A stretch of DNA of 64,000 nucleotides from Parahoeflea alexandrii. GTDB lineage: Bacteria > Pseudomonadota > Alphaproteobacteria > Rhizobiales > Rhizobiaceae. Position 1 is the first letter of the stretch, and each line of letters opens with the position of its first letter. The position numbers and the translations under genes were made by a program. Location: positions 124,001-188,000 of the forward strand of contig NZ_JAAAML010000002.1 of the NCBI RefSeq assembly GCF_024105735.1, written 5' to 3'. The notes beneath the pieces were generated by a model that saw only the letters and a program-made list of their open reading frames with translations, was not told where the DNA came from and ran no database searches. Shown here one piece after another: positions 373 to 52,214 of this stretch.

Positions 373-711
373 TCAGTCGCCTTCGCCGGGCTCCGGAGAG
401 AAGTACTTCTCGAACTTGCCTTCCTGGCCGTCGAATTCCTTCGCGTCGTCCGGGGCTTCACGTTTGATTGTGATGTTCGGCCATTTGTCGGCAAATTCAG
501 TGTTGACCTCGAGCCACTTTTCAAGCCCGGGCTCGGTGTCCGGCTTGATGGCTTCGGCGGGGCACTCGGGCTCGCACACGCCGCAATCGATGCATTCGTC
601 AGGATGAATGACCAGCATGTTCTCGCCCTCGTAGAAACAATCCACCGGGCAGACTTCAACGCAATCCATGTATTTGCAGCGAATGCAGTTATCAGTCACC
701 ACATAGGTCAT
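373..711 (-). CDS. fdxA: Seven-iron ferredoxin FdxA
   Basis: This 112-aa protein is a small cytoplasmic electron carrier. The sequence shows the full 7Fe set: Cys9, Cys17 and Cys50 fit the [3Fe-4S] cluster, and Cys21, Cys40, Cys43 and Cys46 fit the [4Fe-4S] cluster (CIDCGVC near residue 40). The acidic C-terminal tail of about 50 residues and the overall length are normal for the family. An AGGAGA ribosome site precedes the ATG. It lies on the same strand as the S4 protein and helicase but 335 bp beyond them, so it probably has its own promoter. Its redox partner cannot be inferred from the context. Confidence 0.96.
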
Positions 712-1046: not shown

Positions 1047-1436
1047 TCATGCGTCATCGTCCGAATTACGAAACTGATCTATTTTTCGCCGGTCACGCTT
1101 GGTCGGCCGGCCTGAACCGGGCTCGCGCTGCGCCGCTACCGTTTCGGCCTTGCTTGCCTCGGTCGGTTTTGGCGTCAGGTCTTCGTACAGCAGTTGCGCT
1201 TCAGGTGCCGGTCCACGGCGATGGCCACAGCCAAGGATTTTGAGCACCAGGATCCGCCGCTCAAGCGAGATGGTCAGGACATCACCCGGCTTGATCTGCG
1301 CGCTGGGCTGATCGATCTTCTCCCGGTTGACCCTGACATTGCCGCCGGAAACGAATTTTCCGGCGAGCGTTCGGGATTTCAGGATTCGGGCGAAGAACAG
1401 CCATTTGTCGATCCGCTGTCTTTCGCTCTGCTCCAC
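1047..1436 (-). CDS. S4-domain RNA-binding protein (Hsp15/HslR-like)
   Basis: This 129-aa protein has an S4 RNA-binding fold in its first ~65 residues: RIDKWLFFARILKSRT, then the VRVNREKI strand and the KPGDVLTISL turn. Family members such as E. coli Hsp15 bind stalled 50S subunits carrying peptidyl-tRNA. The C-terminal ~50 residues are basic and low in complexity, as usual for RNA binders. The start is a GTG at 1436, only 11 bp after the helicase stop, so the two genes are almost certainly co-transcribed. The pairing of helicase and S4 protein suggests a shared RNA-handling role. The exact target is not known from sequence. Confidence 0.85.
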   Translation of the reverse strand: MEQSERQRIDKWLFFARILKSRTLAGKFVSGGNVRVNREKIDQPSAQIKPGDVLTISLERRILVLKILGCGHRRGPAPEAQLLYEDLTPKPTEASKAETVAAQREPGSGRPTKRDRRKIDQFRNSDDDA

Positions 1437-1447
1437 CAGACCCGTGC

Positions 1448-4400
1448 CTATTTCTTCAGCTGGTCACGCAAGGCTGCCAGAGCTGCGAAGGGCGAATCCG
1501 GATCGATCGGCTTCTCCTTGCGCTGCGGCCGGTCGTTGCGGTTGCCACGGTTCGCATCACCGCCGTGGCCTGGCTTGTTGCCATGTCCGCCCTTGCCGCC
1601 CCGGCCGGGTCCGCCCTTGCCCTGGTGTCCCGGCTTTCCGCGGTGGCCCCGGTTGGGACGGCCCTCGCCATCGGCTGCAGCTTCGCCATCCTGCTTCTCG
1701 CCGGACCGGGCGTTGCGGTTGCCACCGTCGCGACGGCCTCTGCCTTCACCGGGCGCATTGCGCGGCCCGCGCTGCCCGTCCTGACGGCCGCCCGGCCGCC
1801 ACAGCAGCACCGGACGCGGCGCTTCCGCTTCTTCAGCAATGTCAGCCTGTGCGGCATCACCTTGAGGCGCCTCGGTCTCACCGGCAGCACTTTCGGCTGC
1901 CGCCTCGGCCGGCTGGGCCGTTGGTGCGTTATCGGCCGCGGGGGATTGCGCGGCATCGGAAGCAGCTTCGCCAGTGGCGTCTTCGGAAGTTTCCGCTGAG
2001 GTCGAAGGTTCTTGGGCCGGTGCGGCGGGCTTGAGCGGGCGGTCCGCGGCAGTTCGCGAAACCACGACTTCAACCTTGGGGCCCTCGGGAGTTCCACCAG
2101 CGGTTTCCGCCTGCGCGGCCTCGAGACCGGCAAGATGAACCTGCGCCTCTTCGGCAGGAACCGCGTCCGCGCGATAACCGAGCCCCTTGAGGATTTCCTC
2201 GATGTCGTCCTGGGTGGCGCCGAGAATGGAAAGCATTCCGGTCGTGGTGATGAAGCGCCGGCCATCATAGGCCGCTTCAGGACGCGTCCCTTGCGTGCCC
2301 GGCTTCCACTGCAGCGCCGGCCGGATCAGATCCGCCAGCCGCTCGAGAATGTCGATGCGCACGGCGCGCTTTCCAAGAAACCGGAAGCCGGCCAGGCGAT
2401 AGAACTCGCGGTCGATTTCGGGATCCGTGGCGACAGATGTGCGGCCAGCGGCCAGCAGCGGTGTCACGTCGCCATAACCGGGCTTCGAAAACCCGTCATT
2501 GGCAAGCGCCCACAACAGCGTCACCAATTCGGCCGGCGCCGGCTTCAGCAAAGCCGGCATGAAGATGTGATAGGCGCCGAAACGGATGCCGTATTTGCGC
2601 AAGGATGCGCGCGCCGACTGATCAAGGTCCTTGATCATCTCGGCCACGTCGCGGCGGAACAGGACGCCGAGGCTTTCGGCCAGCCGGAAAGCCAGTCCGC
2701 GCGCCAGTCCGTCAAGATCCTCGGCGCGGGTCAGATCGTCGAGCGGCTTGAGCACCGTGGCGATATGGTGATTGACGAACCGGTCGATGCGCGCGGCGAC
2801 GAAATCCCGGGCGGTCCCGGTCAGCTGTTCGTCGGCCAGCAGGATCGTGCGCGGCTTGAGAATGTGATCGCCGCTTGCGAGCTTGGCAACGGGATCGCCC
2901 AGCCAGCGCACGGTGCCATCCGCCCCGATGGCGAAATCGGAATTGCCCGAGGCATGCAGCCGTGCTGCCCGCGCTTCGAATTCCAGCGCCAGCGCCTTCT
3001 GCGCGGCAGCCAGAACGGCCTTTGCGTCCGGCCCGTCCGCCGAGCTATCCGGCATGAACCGGAATCCGGCCAGTTGTCCTACGTGGTGACCTTCAACAAA
3101 GACATCACCGTTCACACTGATTTCAGCTTCGAGCATCGCGTTCTCTCTCAGGCGCCTCATGAGCACAGATGTCCTGCGGTCAACAAAGCGTTTCGTCAAC
3201 CTTTCATGCAACGCATCGGACAAACGGTCCTCAATTTCACGCGTCTTTTCCTGCCAGTGTGTCGGATCGGCAAGCCATTCAGGTCTGTTGGAAACATAGG
3301 TCCATGTCCGGATCTGAGAGATCCGGGCCGACAATGTGTCGATTTCTCCGTCTGTGGAATCGGTGCGGCGGACCTGTTCGGCGAGGAAATCCTCGTTCAC
3401 CGACCCGGTGCGGATCAGGTCCCGGTAAATCGTGGCAATCAGGTCGGCATGCTGTGCCGGAGCGATCCGCCGGTAATCCGGCAGCGAGCACACATCCCAC
3501 AGGGTGGCGACCCCTTGCGGCGTGCTGGCAAGGTCGCGCACCTCGAAATCATTGACCAGGTGCTCGAGCGCGCGCTGGTCGACCGCCGGCAGAGCCCGGG
3601 TCAGTCCCTGCACTGCCGGAATCTGCTCGAGACTCGCCTGCAGCGATTTCAGACTGGAGAAATCGAGCTGCTTGGATCGCCATTGCAGGATCTTGACCGG
3701 CTCGAACACATGGCTTTCAAGCCTTTGGACCAGATCATCGGGCAGCGGGTGAACCTGGCCTGTGACGCCAAACGTGCCGTCGCGCAGGTGGCGGCCGGCA
3801 CGGCCGGCGATCTGGCCGAATTCCGAAGCCGTAAGTTGCCGGTAGGAAAAACCGTCGAATTTCCGGTCCTGGGCAAAGGCAACATGATCGACATCGAGGT
3901 TGAGCCCCATGCCGATGGCGTCGGTGGCCACCAGGTAGTCGACATCGCCGTTCTGGTAGAGCTCGACCTGGGCATTACGGGTGCGCGGGCTGAGTGCCCC
4001 CAGAACAACCGCCGCTCCGCCACGCTGGCGCCGCACAAGTTCGGCGATCGCGTAGACCTCGTCGGCCGAGAACGCCACGATGGCCGAACGCCGCGGCAGC
4101 CGCGTGATCTTCTTCGAGCCTGCGTAATGCAGCTCCGACAGGCGCGGACGCTCGACGATTGTGATCCCCGGCAGCAATTGCTCGAGAATGCCGCGCACCG
4201 TTGCCGATCCGAGCAGCAGCGTTTCCTCCCGGCCGCGCAATGACAGGATTCGGTCGGTAAAGACGTGGCCGCGTTCAAGATCTCCGGCAATCTGCACTTC
4301 GTCGATGGCGACAAAGGCGGCATTGGTTTCCTGCGGCATCGCCTCGACGGTGCACACCGAGTAGCGTGCGCCCGGCGGCGTGATCTTTTCCTCGCCGGTG

Positions 4401-4618
4401 ACCAGCGAGACATGGCTTAGCCCGACCTTTTCGACCATCCGCCCGTAGACCTCGCGCGCCAAGAGCCGCAGCGGCAGTCCGATAACGCCCGACGAATGCG
4501 CCGCCATCCGCTCGATGGCGAAATGCGTCTTGCCGGTATTGGTCGGTCCCAGCACGGCAGTGACACCGCGCCCGGACAGGATCAATGGTTTCGGGGGATG
4601 GCTGGGGAAAGCGGGCAT
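1448..4618 (-). CDS. Suv3-like DExH RNA helicase with low-complexity tail
   Basis: The 1056-aa protein is a superfamily 2 helicase of the alphaproteobacterial MgpS/Suv3-like type. Walker A (GPTNTGKT) is near residue 25, the DExx box is IDEVQ near 105, and the motif VI-like region QIAGRAGRHLRDG is near 270. The last ~220 residues are an Ala/Glu-rich stretch followed by a Gly/Arg/Asn/Lys-rich tail, typical of disordered RNA-binding regions. I place the start at the ATG at 4618 because an upstream in-frame extension to 4717 has no homology character and enters the repeat array. The S4 gene follows within 11 bp. Family members act in RNA unwinding or decay; the substrate here is unknown. Confidence 0.9.
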   Translation of the reverse strand: MPAFPSHPPKPLILSGRGVTAVLGPTNTGKTHFAIERMAAHSSGVIGLPLRLLAREVYGRMVEKVGLSHVSLVTGEEKITPPGARYSVCTVEAMPQETNAAFVAIDEVQIAGDLERGHVFTDRILSLRGREETLLLGSATVRGILEQLLPGITIVERPRLSELHYAGSKKITRLPRRSAIVAFSADEVYAIAELVRRQRGGAAVVLGALSPRTRNAQVELYQNGDVDYLVATDAIGMGLNLDVDHVAFAQDRKFDGFSYRQLTASEFGQIAGRAGRHLRDGTFGVTGQVHPLPDDLVQRLESHVFEPVKILQWRSKQLDFSSLKSLQASLEQIPAVQGLTRALPAVDQRALEHLVNDFEVRDLASTPQGVATLWDVCSLPDYRRIAPAQHADLIATIYRDLIRTGSVNEDFLAEQVRRTDSTDGEIDTLSARISQIRTWTYVSNRPEWLADPTHWQEKTREIEDRLSDALHERLTKRFVDRRTSVLMRRLRENAMLEAEISVNGDVFVEGHHVGQLAGFRFMPDSSADGPDAKAVLAAAQKALALEFEARAARLHASGNSDFAIGADGTVRWLGDPVAKLASGDHILKPRTILLADEQLTGTARDFVAARIDRFVNHHIATVLKPLDDLTRAEDLDGLARGLAFRLAESLGVLFRRDVAEMIKDLDQSARASLRKYGIRFGAYHIFMPALLKPAPAELVTLLWALANDGFSKPGYGDVTPLLAAGRTSVATDPEIDREFYRLAGFRFLGKRAVRIDILERLADLIRPALQWKPGTQGTRPEAAYDGRRFITTTGMLSILGATQDDIEEILKGLGYRADAVPAEEAQVHLAGLEAAQAETAGGTPEGPKVEVVVSRTAADRPLKPAAPAQEPSTSAETSEDATGEAASDAAQSPAADNAPTAQPAEAAAESAAGETEAPQGDAAQADIAEEAEAPRPVLLWRPGGRQDGQRGPRNAPGEGRGRRDGGNRNARSGEKQDGEAAADGEGRPNRGHRGKPGHQGKGGPGRGGKGGHGNKPGHGGDANRGNRNDRPQRKEKPIDPDSPFAALAALRDQLKK

Positions 4619-4709
4619 GTCGTCCGTATTCAGGTCAGGTCGCGCGTTACCTATCACATCGGAGAAGGCGAAACAGGGGCTAATCGCAAAGAACCCGAAG
4701 ACTCGCAAT

Positions 4710-4981
4710 TTAACCATTGGAACAGTCGCGGAACGAATCGGCGACGAATCAATGACTCGTCCTGATTCCGGCTTTGTTCACCCCCATATCTGCCCTGCGT
4801 GACCATCCACGACACCATATGCTGAATCGCCCTCGCAGCGATTCCGCCAAGCAGCCCCGGTTGCGTTAACCTTTCAAATCCACGCCGCTCCGCAAGGTGG
4901 TCAGTCAGCCGCTCATTTTAAGAGTTTATCAATATTTCCAAATACTTCTTTAATCAGTTACCCGGTCTTTGAACGATCGGA
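4710..4981. repeat. Tandem ~280-bp repeat, unit 1 of 3
   Basis: The unit begins with TTAACC at 4710. The 20-bp block GAACGAATCGGCGACGAATC lies at 4731-4750, TTTGTTCACC at 4773, and GTTAACC at 4865. These offsets are the same in units 2 and 3. The distal half is AT-rich and resembles unit 2 (CAGCCG-TCA-TTTT, TTCCAAA-ACTTC). No protein is encoded. It lies immediately upstream of the helicase start. Confidence 0.85.
4720..4734. promoter_or_regulatory. LexA-like box, repeat unit 1
   Basis: GAAC-AGTCGCG-GAAC is a perfect match to GAAC-N7-GAAC, the reverse complement of GTTC-N7-GTTC, the LexA box described for Alphaproteobacteria. It lies about 100 bp upstream of the helicase ATG. Function is inferred. 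Confidence 0.5.
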
Positions 4982-5269
4982 TTAACCTTCGGAACAGCGG
5001 TGGAACGAATCGGCGACGAATCATTGACCTGGCCCGGTTGGCCATTTGTTCACCACAACATATGGATTCTCGCCCACCATGCTGCCACTAGTCTTGGACA
5101 GTCGGCACCACGGTATCGACGCTGCCCAACCCGAAAATTAACCTTTGCCGTTTGCTGCGCTTGCCAAAATCATCTGTCGATTCCTTCGCCACCCATTCTC
5201 AGCCGTTCAGATTTTGTTAAACATTCCAAACACTTCGTAAAGGCATTTGGTGGCATTTTCCGGTTCCTG
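4982..5269. repeat. Tandem ~280-bp repeat, unit 2 of 3
   Basis: TTAACC starts at 4982, the shared 20-bp block is at 5003-5022, TTTGTTCACC is at 5045 and (A)TTAACC at 5138. The spacing from TTAAC to the 20-bp block and from the block to TTTGTTCACC matches unit 1 exactly. Sequence between the blocks has diverged strongly. Confidence 0.85.
4992..5006. promoter_or_regulatory. LexA-like box, repeat unit 2
   Basis: GAAC-AGCGGTG-GAAC keeps the same spacing and the same position within the repeat as in unit 1. Confidence 0.5.
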
Positions 5270-5440
5270 TTAACTTCCGGAACAGCGCTGGAACGAATCG
5301 GCGACGAATCAGCTTCAAGCGGGATTTCCCGGTTTGTTCACCACCAGATCTTGTGATTTGGCCCGCGTCGCCATCTATTGAGCTGCTGAAAAAGGTGAGA
5401 ATGAAAGGGTTGACACCCGGTTCCGTTAACCTTTGCGGTT
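5270..5440. repeat. Tandem ~280-bp repeat, unit 3 of 3 (partial)
   Basis: TTAAC starts at 5270, the 20-bp block is at 5291-5310, TTTGTTCACC at 5333 and GTTAACC at 5425. The unit is cut short by the 3' end of the GST gene, which ends at 5452 on the minus strand, so the AT-rich distal half is missing. Confidence 0.8.
5280..5294. promoter_or_regulatory. LexA-like box, repeat unit 3
   Basis: GAAC-AGCGCTG-GAAC again occurs at the same position within the unit. Confidence 0.5.
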
Positions 5441-5451
5441 CCGGCCGGGAC

Positions 5452-6165
5452 TCATCCGGTCTGCTTCCGTCGCAGGACCTCCCGCAACGATGCCTCGATC
5501 TGCCCACCACACCATGCGTCTCCGAATGCCGCGTCGCTCCGGGACCTGAGCTCAATCTGGGAATCAATCGCCGCAATCCGGTCCGTAAGCCCGGCAATCG
5601 CCGGGGCATGACGGTCCAGCACCGGCCTGAGCGCGGGCAGCTTTGCGGTCATCGTGCCCCACAATGTTGAAGTTACGAGATCAGCCAGCCCCGGGGCATC
5701 ACCTCCCAGCATGAATCCGGAACTCACCCTCACGCCGTAACGCCAGCCGGTCTCCTCGAAAATTCCCATCCAGCGATGCAGTCTCGGTAGAAAATCCGCC
5801 CACGCCGCGTCCGTCCACATCTGCGCGCCATTGTACCGGGTCATCTCGTAGAGCACGTCATTGGCGTCGCATACGACCTTGAGGCACATCGCCCGTGTCG
5901 CGGGATCGGTTCCCGTCAAGTCGTGCTTTTCGCCAAGAAAGCTCAGGATCGCCGGCATCTGGGAAACATGGATGTTGCGCTGATGGTCCGTCAGAACCGG
6001 TGGTCCCATATGCGCGATCAGCTGTTCGCCCGGCGGTGATGTTCTTTGCGCAAGCGACGCCTCATATCCGGCCTCCTCCCAGACGCAGCCGATATGGGCA
6101 AGAACGGACCGGACGAACTGACCGCGGAATTGGATGGGCCAGTAGTAGAGCGTGTAATCAGTCAC
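5452..6165 (-). CDS. Glutathione S-transferase-like protein
   Basis: The 237-aa cytoplasmic protein begins with a thioredoxin-fold strand (YTLYYWPIQFRGQFVRSVLA) and carries the cis-proline segment GPPVLTD near residue 55, followed by an all-alpha C-terminal half. This is the GST layout. The usual SxAI-type segment appears as SQMPAILSFLG. I chose the GTG at 6165, which has an AAGGAG site about 8 bp upstream; a longer in-frame extension to 6246 lacks a ribosome site. The substrate cannot be predicted. It is separated from phaB by a terminator and ends at the repeat array, so it appears to be a single transcription unit. Confidence 0.72.
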   Translation of the reverse strand: MTDYTLYYWPIQFRGQFVRSVLAHIGCVWEEAGYEASLAQRTSPPGEQLIAHMGPPVLTDHQRNIHVSQMPAILSFLGEKHDLTGTDPATRAMCLKVVCDANDVLYEMTRYNGAQMWTDAAWADFLPRLHRWMGIFEETGWRYGVRVSSGFMLGGDAPGLADLVTSTLWGTMTAKLPALRPVLDRHAPAIAGLTDRIAAIDSQIELRSRSDAAFGDAWCGGQIEASLREVLRRKQTG

Positions 6166-6248
6166 TGCCGATCTCTCCTTTAACTGGGCTTGTCCCGATC
6201 CGGATCCCCGACAGCAAGAAGGCCTCAGCAGAACATTCATTCCCAAAT

Positions 6249-52124: not shown

Positions 52125-52214
<90 letters not shown>

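Follow-up and report, generated by a model that had tools for sequence, protein, structure and literature searches.

Gene neighbourhood of the array

The array described here lies within a 64,000-nucleotide stretch of the Parahoeflea alexandrii genome (the window, meaning the whole stretch of DNA analysed), where the minus strand carries, in order, phaA (assigned by its reading frame only), phaB, a GST gene, the array, a Suv3-like helicase, an S4-domain protein and a FdxA-type ferredoxin (Table 1). Given this gene order, the array constitutes the 5' region of the helicase gene cluster. The original prediction, made from the sequence of the window, described three non-coding units of fixed internal architecture between the GST and helicase genes, and this geometry is confirmed letter for letter. 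In each unit the 22-mer GGAACGAATCGGCGACGAATCA begins 20 bp after the start of TTAAC, and TTTGTTCACC follows exactly 21 bp beyond the 22-mer; the distance to the trailing (G/A)TTAACC block, initially put at 92-93 bp, is refined to 92 bp, start to start from TTTGTTCACC. The non-coding character of the units also holds, since the gap shows no conserved reading frame: even the best frame stays open in just 72 of the 149 first units and in 96 of the 157 others, which speaks against coding sequence as an explanation.

Table 1. Coordinates of the array units, their sequence blocks and the neighbouring genes in the window
Feature	Position	Strand	Basis or remark
CarD and sigma-70-family (RpoH-like) gene, just outside the window after fdxA			PF02559/PF21095; Sigma70_r2/r4 in locus L299
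FdxA-type ferredoxin	373..711	minus	PF11953, PF00037
S4-domain protein, next after the helicase	1047..1436	minus	PF01479
Suv3-like helicase adjoining the array	1448..4618 (probable start 4618)	minus	PF22527 DEXQc_Suv3 E 9.1e-27, PF00271
Unit 1, helicase-proximal; conserved block, TTAAC through ATNTG element	4710..4793		Profile of 298 units
Unit 1 GAAC-N7-GAAC	4720..4734	minus	Form of the alphaproteobacterial LexA box GTTC-N7-GTTC
22-mer GGAACGAATCGGCGACGAATCA, units 1, 2 and 3	4730..4751; 5002..5023; 5290..5311		Identical in the three units
Unit 1 site A, YGATTCG	4734..4740	minus	Extended GcrA motif form, includes GANTC
Unit 1 site B, YGATTCG	4745..4751	minus	11 bp from site A
Unit 1 extra GANTC: GACTC (4754), GATTC (4764)	4754..4768		Retained chiefly in helicase-proximal units
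TTTGTTCACC, units 1, 2 and 3	4773..4782; 5045..5054; 5333..5342		TTTGTTC is the inverted partner of GAACGAA
Unit 1 second block CACCATATGCTGAATCG	4813..4829		Conserved chiefly in first units
Trailing block (GTTAACC in unit 1), units 1, 2 and 3	4865..4871; 5137..5143; 5425..5431
Unit 2	4982..5065		Repeat search and profile of 298 units
Unit 2 sites A and B	5006..5023	minus
Unit 3	5270..5353		Repeat search and profile of 298 units
Unit 3 sites A and B	5294..5311	minus
GST gene	5452..6246	minus
tRNA-Ser (CGA)	52125..52214	minus

A repeat search of the window returned a single family, consisting of three 83-nt copies with 76% and 70% identity to copy 1 and spacings of 272 and 288 bp. Matches to the core with at most three mismatches number three in the window, as against 0.03 expected from 100 shuffles. 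The whole 4.9-Mb genome likewise contains three core matches, all of them inside the array, and none to the reversed pattern. Dispersed RIME-like repeats occur in many copies across a genome, and a dispersed intergenic repeat of this kind is rejected because the only three core matches genome-wide are all in the array. Seven of the 15 places in the window with TTAAC or GTTAA fall in 4701-5500.

The association with the helicase extends well beyond this genome. We counted 216 loci (203 distinct first-unit sequences) that have a unit and no less than 350 bp to its left; 11 more loci were cut off. In 210 of the 216 the helicase starts on the left side of the first unit, on the minus strand and always in the same orientation; the six loci without a helicase at the expected place are L197, L213 (which has a partial match), L223, L279, L295 and L296. 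Helicase identity ranges from 50 to 100%, and the distance from core to helicase from 46 to 1746 bp (median 155), with distances extrapolated to query residue 1; in L283, the locus at the lower limit, a fitting ATG lies about 100 bp from the core and not 46. Outside the source genome, the helicase is the neighbour in 21 of 23 element-bearing genomes of the class. Array and helicase stay together while GST and phaB come and go; between the array and phaB, GST gave a tblastn match in 8 of the 18 genus loci and in none of the other-genus loci for which flanks were fetched. An ATG in the helicase frame lies at 4717 inside unit 1 (the complement of TTAACCAT), where a longer frame would begin, and an automatic start call could thus extend the helicase into the array.

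Anatomy of the module

In 207 units from the family, and in the set of 298 units, the module shows one order of elements: TTAAC, 4 bp, GGAAC, 6 bp, GGAACGAATC(G/A)GCGACGAATC(A/G), a variable stretch with a fixed TT, TTTGTTC and the CNNAANATNTNG element. The units displayed from BLAST-derived loci agree in spacing to the base, with L010, L011 and L020 short by a single base; the class-wide gapped pattern itself requires fixed spacing. Information content in the 298 units reaches 2 bits in the core and falls to 0.0-0.2 at -60..-23 and +150..+229. The original view that the blocks are under strong selection and do not reflect a recent duplication is supported.

The left side of the module is an 11-bp direct repeat, its left half-sites recurring every 11 bp. 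YGATTCG is found on the minus strand at site A in 318 and at site B in 372 of the 377 distinct units, although the conservation of CGAATC is inflated in these counts because the units were gathered with patterns or a matrix that contain it. Site B was also seen in 14 of the 20 BLAST-derived loci, namely those whose units were displayed, and three AT-rich genomes (L283-L285) have lost site A. Among the 207 family units, core positions 9 and 20 are nearly always a purine, as the Y of the GcrA motif demands, and the N of both core GANTC sites is nearly invariant. A constraint set purely by methylation would not account for this fixed N and is disfavoured on these grounds.

Among 187 first and 190 other units, the GTTC of the TTTGTTC block is present in 183 and 187, and TTAAC or GTTAA occurs at +100..+200 from the core in 144 and 172, respectively; an exact TTAAC at -21 is found in only 80 of the 187 first units. 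First units often add GAGTC, GACTC and GATTC, plus a second block, CACCANATGCTGAATCG, near +82. Of 187 first units, 142 and 125 have the extra GANTC sites at the positions equivalent to 4754 and 4764 of unit 1; among 191 others the numbers are 17 and 5. Over five positions the mean number of GANTC sites is 3.8 in first and 1.9 in other units. The other units begin with CGTTAACC.

The 187 distinct loci comprise 49 with one unit, 96 with two, 33 with three, seven with four and two with five, all lower bounds, the flanks being limited. Of 176 inter-unit spacings, 48 measure 271-273 bp and 44 measure 282-284 bp; helical phasing was considered and rejected, the 51 unique spacings having no significant period. 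In six loci (L051, L074, L075, L083, L104 and L141) a further unit stands 636-1753 bp away from the adjacent one, as though genes or some other DNA intervened.

Distribution of the module in Alphaproteobacteria

Close relatives had been proposed as the place to look for the blocks, and they are not absent there: the core 20-mer, with at most two mismatches, occurs in 198 of 297 family genomes and in 79 of 109 genera, with one match to the reversed control among the 297. Across the class the same strict pattern is found in 6 of 289 genomes (reversed control, 1), and four of the five matches outside the source genome (L054, L055, L056 and L058) fail to score as units. The gapped pattern of invariant positions recovers 24 of 385 sampled class genomes, from 11 families including that of P. 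alexandrii, with one match to the reversed control. The family and class samples behind these counts are draws, with some genomes in two collections, and pattern searches overlook diverged elements.

With the whole intergenic region as query, matches were obtained in all 18 genomes of the genus (the source included), in 3 of 7 from the rest of the family and in none of 16 from other families. The exact gapped pattern occurs in at least 119 stretches of named genomes, and the genera among the matches listed are Rhizobium, Ensifer, Agrobacterium, Mesorhizobium, Brucella, Bartonella, Labrenzia, Methyloceanibacter, Cohaesibacter and Brevundimonas. The window is close to Hoeflea, and a Hoeflea halophila record (L175) carries three units with spacings of 271 and 288 bp. 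Copies of the control element thus occur at the same gene in distantly related alphaproteobacteria, and the module appears to be deeply conserved and tandemly amplified in Rhizobiales. A non-coding element that can be recognised at one gene from AT-rich alphaproteobacteria with genomes of 1.3-1.4 Mb to the rhizobia is unusual in bacteria. In the text of the literature that we searched, we found no description of the array.

Predicted role in control of the helicase cluster

Direct observation covers where the array lies, how many copies it holds, the rigid geometry within the units, the phylogenetic depth and the motifs present. Regulatory proteins most likely dock on the array, which probably acts at the DNA level as a control module of the helicase cluster. 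Among the three roles that had been suggested initially, that of a regulatory array for the helicase fits best, the helicase being the gene beside the first unit in nearly all loci; a triplicated small-RNA gene finds little support, and a chromosome-maintenance site at the origin none.

As to the proteins involved, the GANTC content of the array points to GcrA and CcrM as candidates. GANTC sites have a density of 15.6 per kb in the gap between GST and helicase and of 1.4 per kb in the rest of the window; published Ensifer genomes are reported to have 0.90-1.83 per kb (PMC8725594). In 157 arrays GANTC occurs 1344 times, compared with 395 (sd 19) in shuffles, a 3.4-fold excess, and GATC lies below its shuffles (287 vs 398). 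GcrA (PF07750) is encoded in 24 of 24 element-bearing genomes and in 221 of 361 other genomes of the class, an association confounded by phylogeny, as the 24 come from 11 families, that of the source included. In the source genome the intact GcrA gene lies at G000:C7:1030587-1031111, and G000:C1:885016-885480 holds another GcrA-family match, weaker than the first and containing a single TGA.

The sites A and B correspond to YGAKTCG, the extended motif reported for GcrA activation in Caulobacter in PMC7987155, which also describes Brevundimonas GcrA as having no preference for an extended motif. This motif is shared with GcrA/CcrM promoters such as Caulobacter ctrA P1, podJ and mipZ (PMC4287350, PMC7987155). 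The array differs from these promoters in having two to five GANTC sites packed into a rigid block of 84 bp, of which there are up to five copies, and in lacking a recognisable promoter, whereas in Caulobacter more than one GANTC within 50 bp is found at only 11 of 96 such start sites (PMC4287350). In the text of section 11 of PMC7987155 the helicase is not named. No sigma-70-like promoter match was found in 4560-5470, a zero that is uninformative because only 0.6 were expected in shuffles, and no conserved -10 or -35 element could be seen by eye.

We propose that each unit is a DNA module for several proteins and that the array forms the regulatory head of the helicase-S4-fdxA-carD cluster. 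CcrM would methylate the GANTC sites, which would become hemimethylated upon passage of the replication fork; GcrA, together with sigma-70 RNA polymerase, would read the paired YGATTCG sites and so time transcription of the cluster to replication. A second protein would read the GAAC half-sites, and CtrA may read the TTAAC half-sites. In Rhizobiales the module would have been duplicated, with the helicase-proximal copy keeping most GANTC sites and the outer copies keeping the core. We consider this reading as a whole evenly balanced between right and wrong. GcrA/CcrM as the main reader of the module is the leading candidate, though we would rate it a little short of an even chance.

A GAACRAA-binding protein may be a reader of the module as well. 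A bolder version, which we put forward tentatively and think somewhat unlikely, is a class-wide nucleoprotein switch in which a dedicated protein on the GAACRAA half-sites and GcrA on methylated GANTC would gate the helicase-S4-ferredoxin-CarD cluster by fork passage, the dose being set by the number of tandem modules. The cluster holds an RNA helicase and CarD, a general regulator of RNA polymerase, so a switch there that responds to the cell cycle or to damage would couple RNA turnover and transcription as a whole to replication. Existing alphaproteobacterial ChIP, start-site or methylome data can, moreover, be queried directly with the exact pattern of the module.

Comparison with LexA, CtrA and CenR sites

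The main rival to GcrA and CcrM is LexA, whose dimers would sit on GAAC-N7-GAAC and on a right-hand [GA]TTC-N7-GTTC and keep the helicase repressed as long as the DNA is undamaged, with the overlap of GANTC being incidental. First units resemble alphaproteobacterial LexA boxes (GTTC-N7-GTTC) in their 11-bp direct repeat of GAAC half-sites, which is near-universal there: GAAC-N7-GAAC is exact in 172 of 187 first units, 154 of the 187 have [GA]TTC where it is expected on the right, and GTTCN7GTTC occurs 232 times in 157 arrays, compared with 3.6 in shuffles. The degenerate LexA motif, moreover, easily overlaps GANTC sites, according to section 11 of PMC7987155. However, retention in outer units is poor (the exact left box is found in only 55 of 190 other units), further conserved blocks are present, and the composition of the spacer differs. 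GTTC-N7-GTTT/C lies about 170 bp upstream of recA in six of eight genomes, and while five of these six sequences have an A/T-rich spacer, as judged by eye, that of the LexA-form boxes in the units is not. Nor does LexA track the element, since 23 of the 24 genomes with the element and 23 of the 26 without it have a LexA match, and a 99% complete genome (G564) bears the element without a LexA match. The LexA reading also leaves the conserved CGAATC outside the half-sites unexplained. We regard it as unlikely.

CtrA (TTAA-N7-TTAA) and CenR (TGA-N8-TGA; PMC9275681), both of the OmpR family, bind direct repeats about one helical turn apart, and such repeats occur in the array too. The TTAAC half-sites flanking the units are likewise shared with the CtrA type of site, and the repeat ACGAATC-N4-ACGAATC differs from the CtrA form. 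A full CtrA operator at the unit is not supported, as TTAA-N7-TTAA is found within 45 bp before the core in 0 of 187 first and 0 of 190 other units; elsewhere in the 157 arrays full CtrA sites number 32, compared with 2.0 in shuffles. The S. meliloti gene SMc00651 may, we presume, belong to the helicase gene cluster. It is named together with a CtrA motif in a passage of PMC3616915.

RNA structure and chromosome position

A quite improbable alternative is an RNA element, either small-RNA genes in tandem or a portion of a long leader of the helicase, with base pairing between GAACRAA and TTYGTTC. Across 42 diverse sequences, 95.2% of the cells in the proposed helices are paired, compared with 93.8% in shuffles, with a covariation score of 0.097 as against 0.068; none of 500 shuffles reached the covariation or the pairing value, and slid versions of the helices score lower. 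The pair between columns 5 and 45 appears as GU, GC and AU without mispairs, and one AT-rich clade switches A-U to U-A. However, changes on both sides amount to three cells in one clade at one pair, and related sequences can exceed all shuffles. Covariance, an originally proposed check, gives weak but not zero evidence: the score on 42 sequences stands above the shuffles, whereas 361 units agree with independence. Numbered from 0, the pair 5-43 is disrupted in 39 of these units, and A-C is found twice at 4-44, compared with about 1.3 under independence.

RNAalifold gives no real fold for 149 and 157 units on either strand (0.0 to -2.0 kcal/mol) and no pairs on the class alignment of 42 sequences, and no Rfam match was obtained up to an E value of 1. 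Terminator-like sites are slightly in excess on the minus strand (5 of 186 arrays, compared with 1.4 in shuffles) but not on the plus strand (1 of 186, compared with 1.3), which weakens an explanation of the units as intrinsic terminators. Tandem arrays of regulatory small RNAs are known, as with LhrC of Listeria, and share tandem diverged copies with the array, which differs in having few terminators and neither a conserved RNA body nor a consensus fold. With no fold, no Rfam match, few terminators and weak covariation, little speaks for the small-RNA gene that had been suggested. We favour proteins on DNA over RNA, a preference to which the rigid spacing, the 11-bp repeats and the inverted GAACRAA half-sites lead us.

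Least probable, and in our view very improbable, is a chromosome-level element away from oriC, for example an initiator-titrating site or a marker of the origin-proximal region. The array is present at one place in the source genome and lies about 180-460 kb from parS in nine genomes (a tenth has no parS match), a similarity in distance that may be plain synteny; and GANTC, TTAAC, the IHF-like WATCAANNNNTTR (14 vs 3.1) and TTATNCACA (9 vs 1.1) exceed their shuffles in 157 arrays, although TTATNCACA is found in only nine of them. Against such a role, the array is tied to the 5' side of one gene even where GST and phaB come and go, and G306 shows no change of KOPS-like polarity at the array (131 kb).

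An origin of replication at the array is not supported, and neither is the suggested role in chromosome maintenance at the origin, given the distance to parS in the nine mapped genomes and the polarity in G306; as GC skew has no clear switch, the case rests on parS and on the KOPS-like motif in this one genome. With a form of the motif that we take to be KOPS-like, the scan of G306 gave minus-strand matches on both sides of the array (0 plus and 16 minus in seven windows, 1-260 kb), a mixture at 280-900 kb and a predominance of plus at 1.2-2.7 Mb, the exception being one window at 4.94 Mb. In Mesorhizobium and relatives, the second units of L144, L174, L004 and L117 carry DnaA boxes resembling TTATCCACAG or TTGTCCACAG just after the core block.
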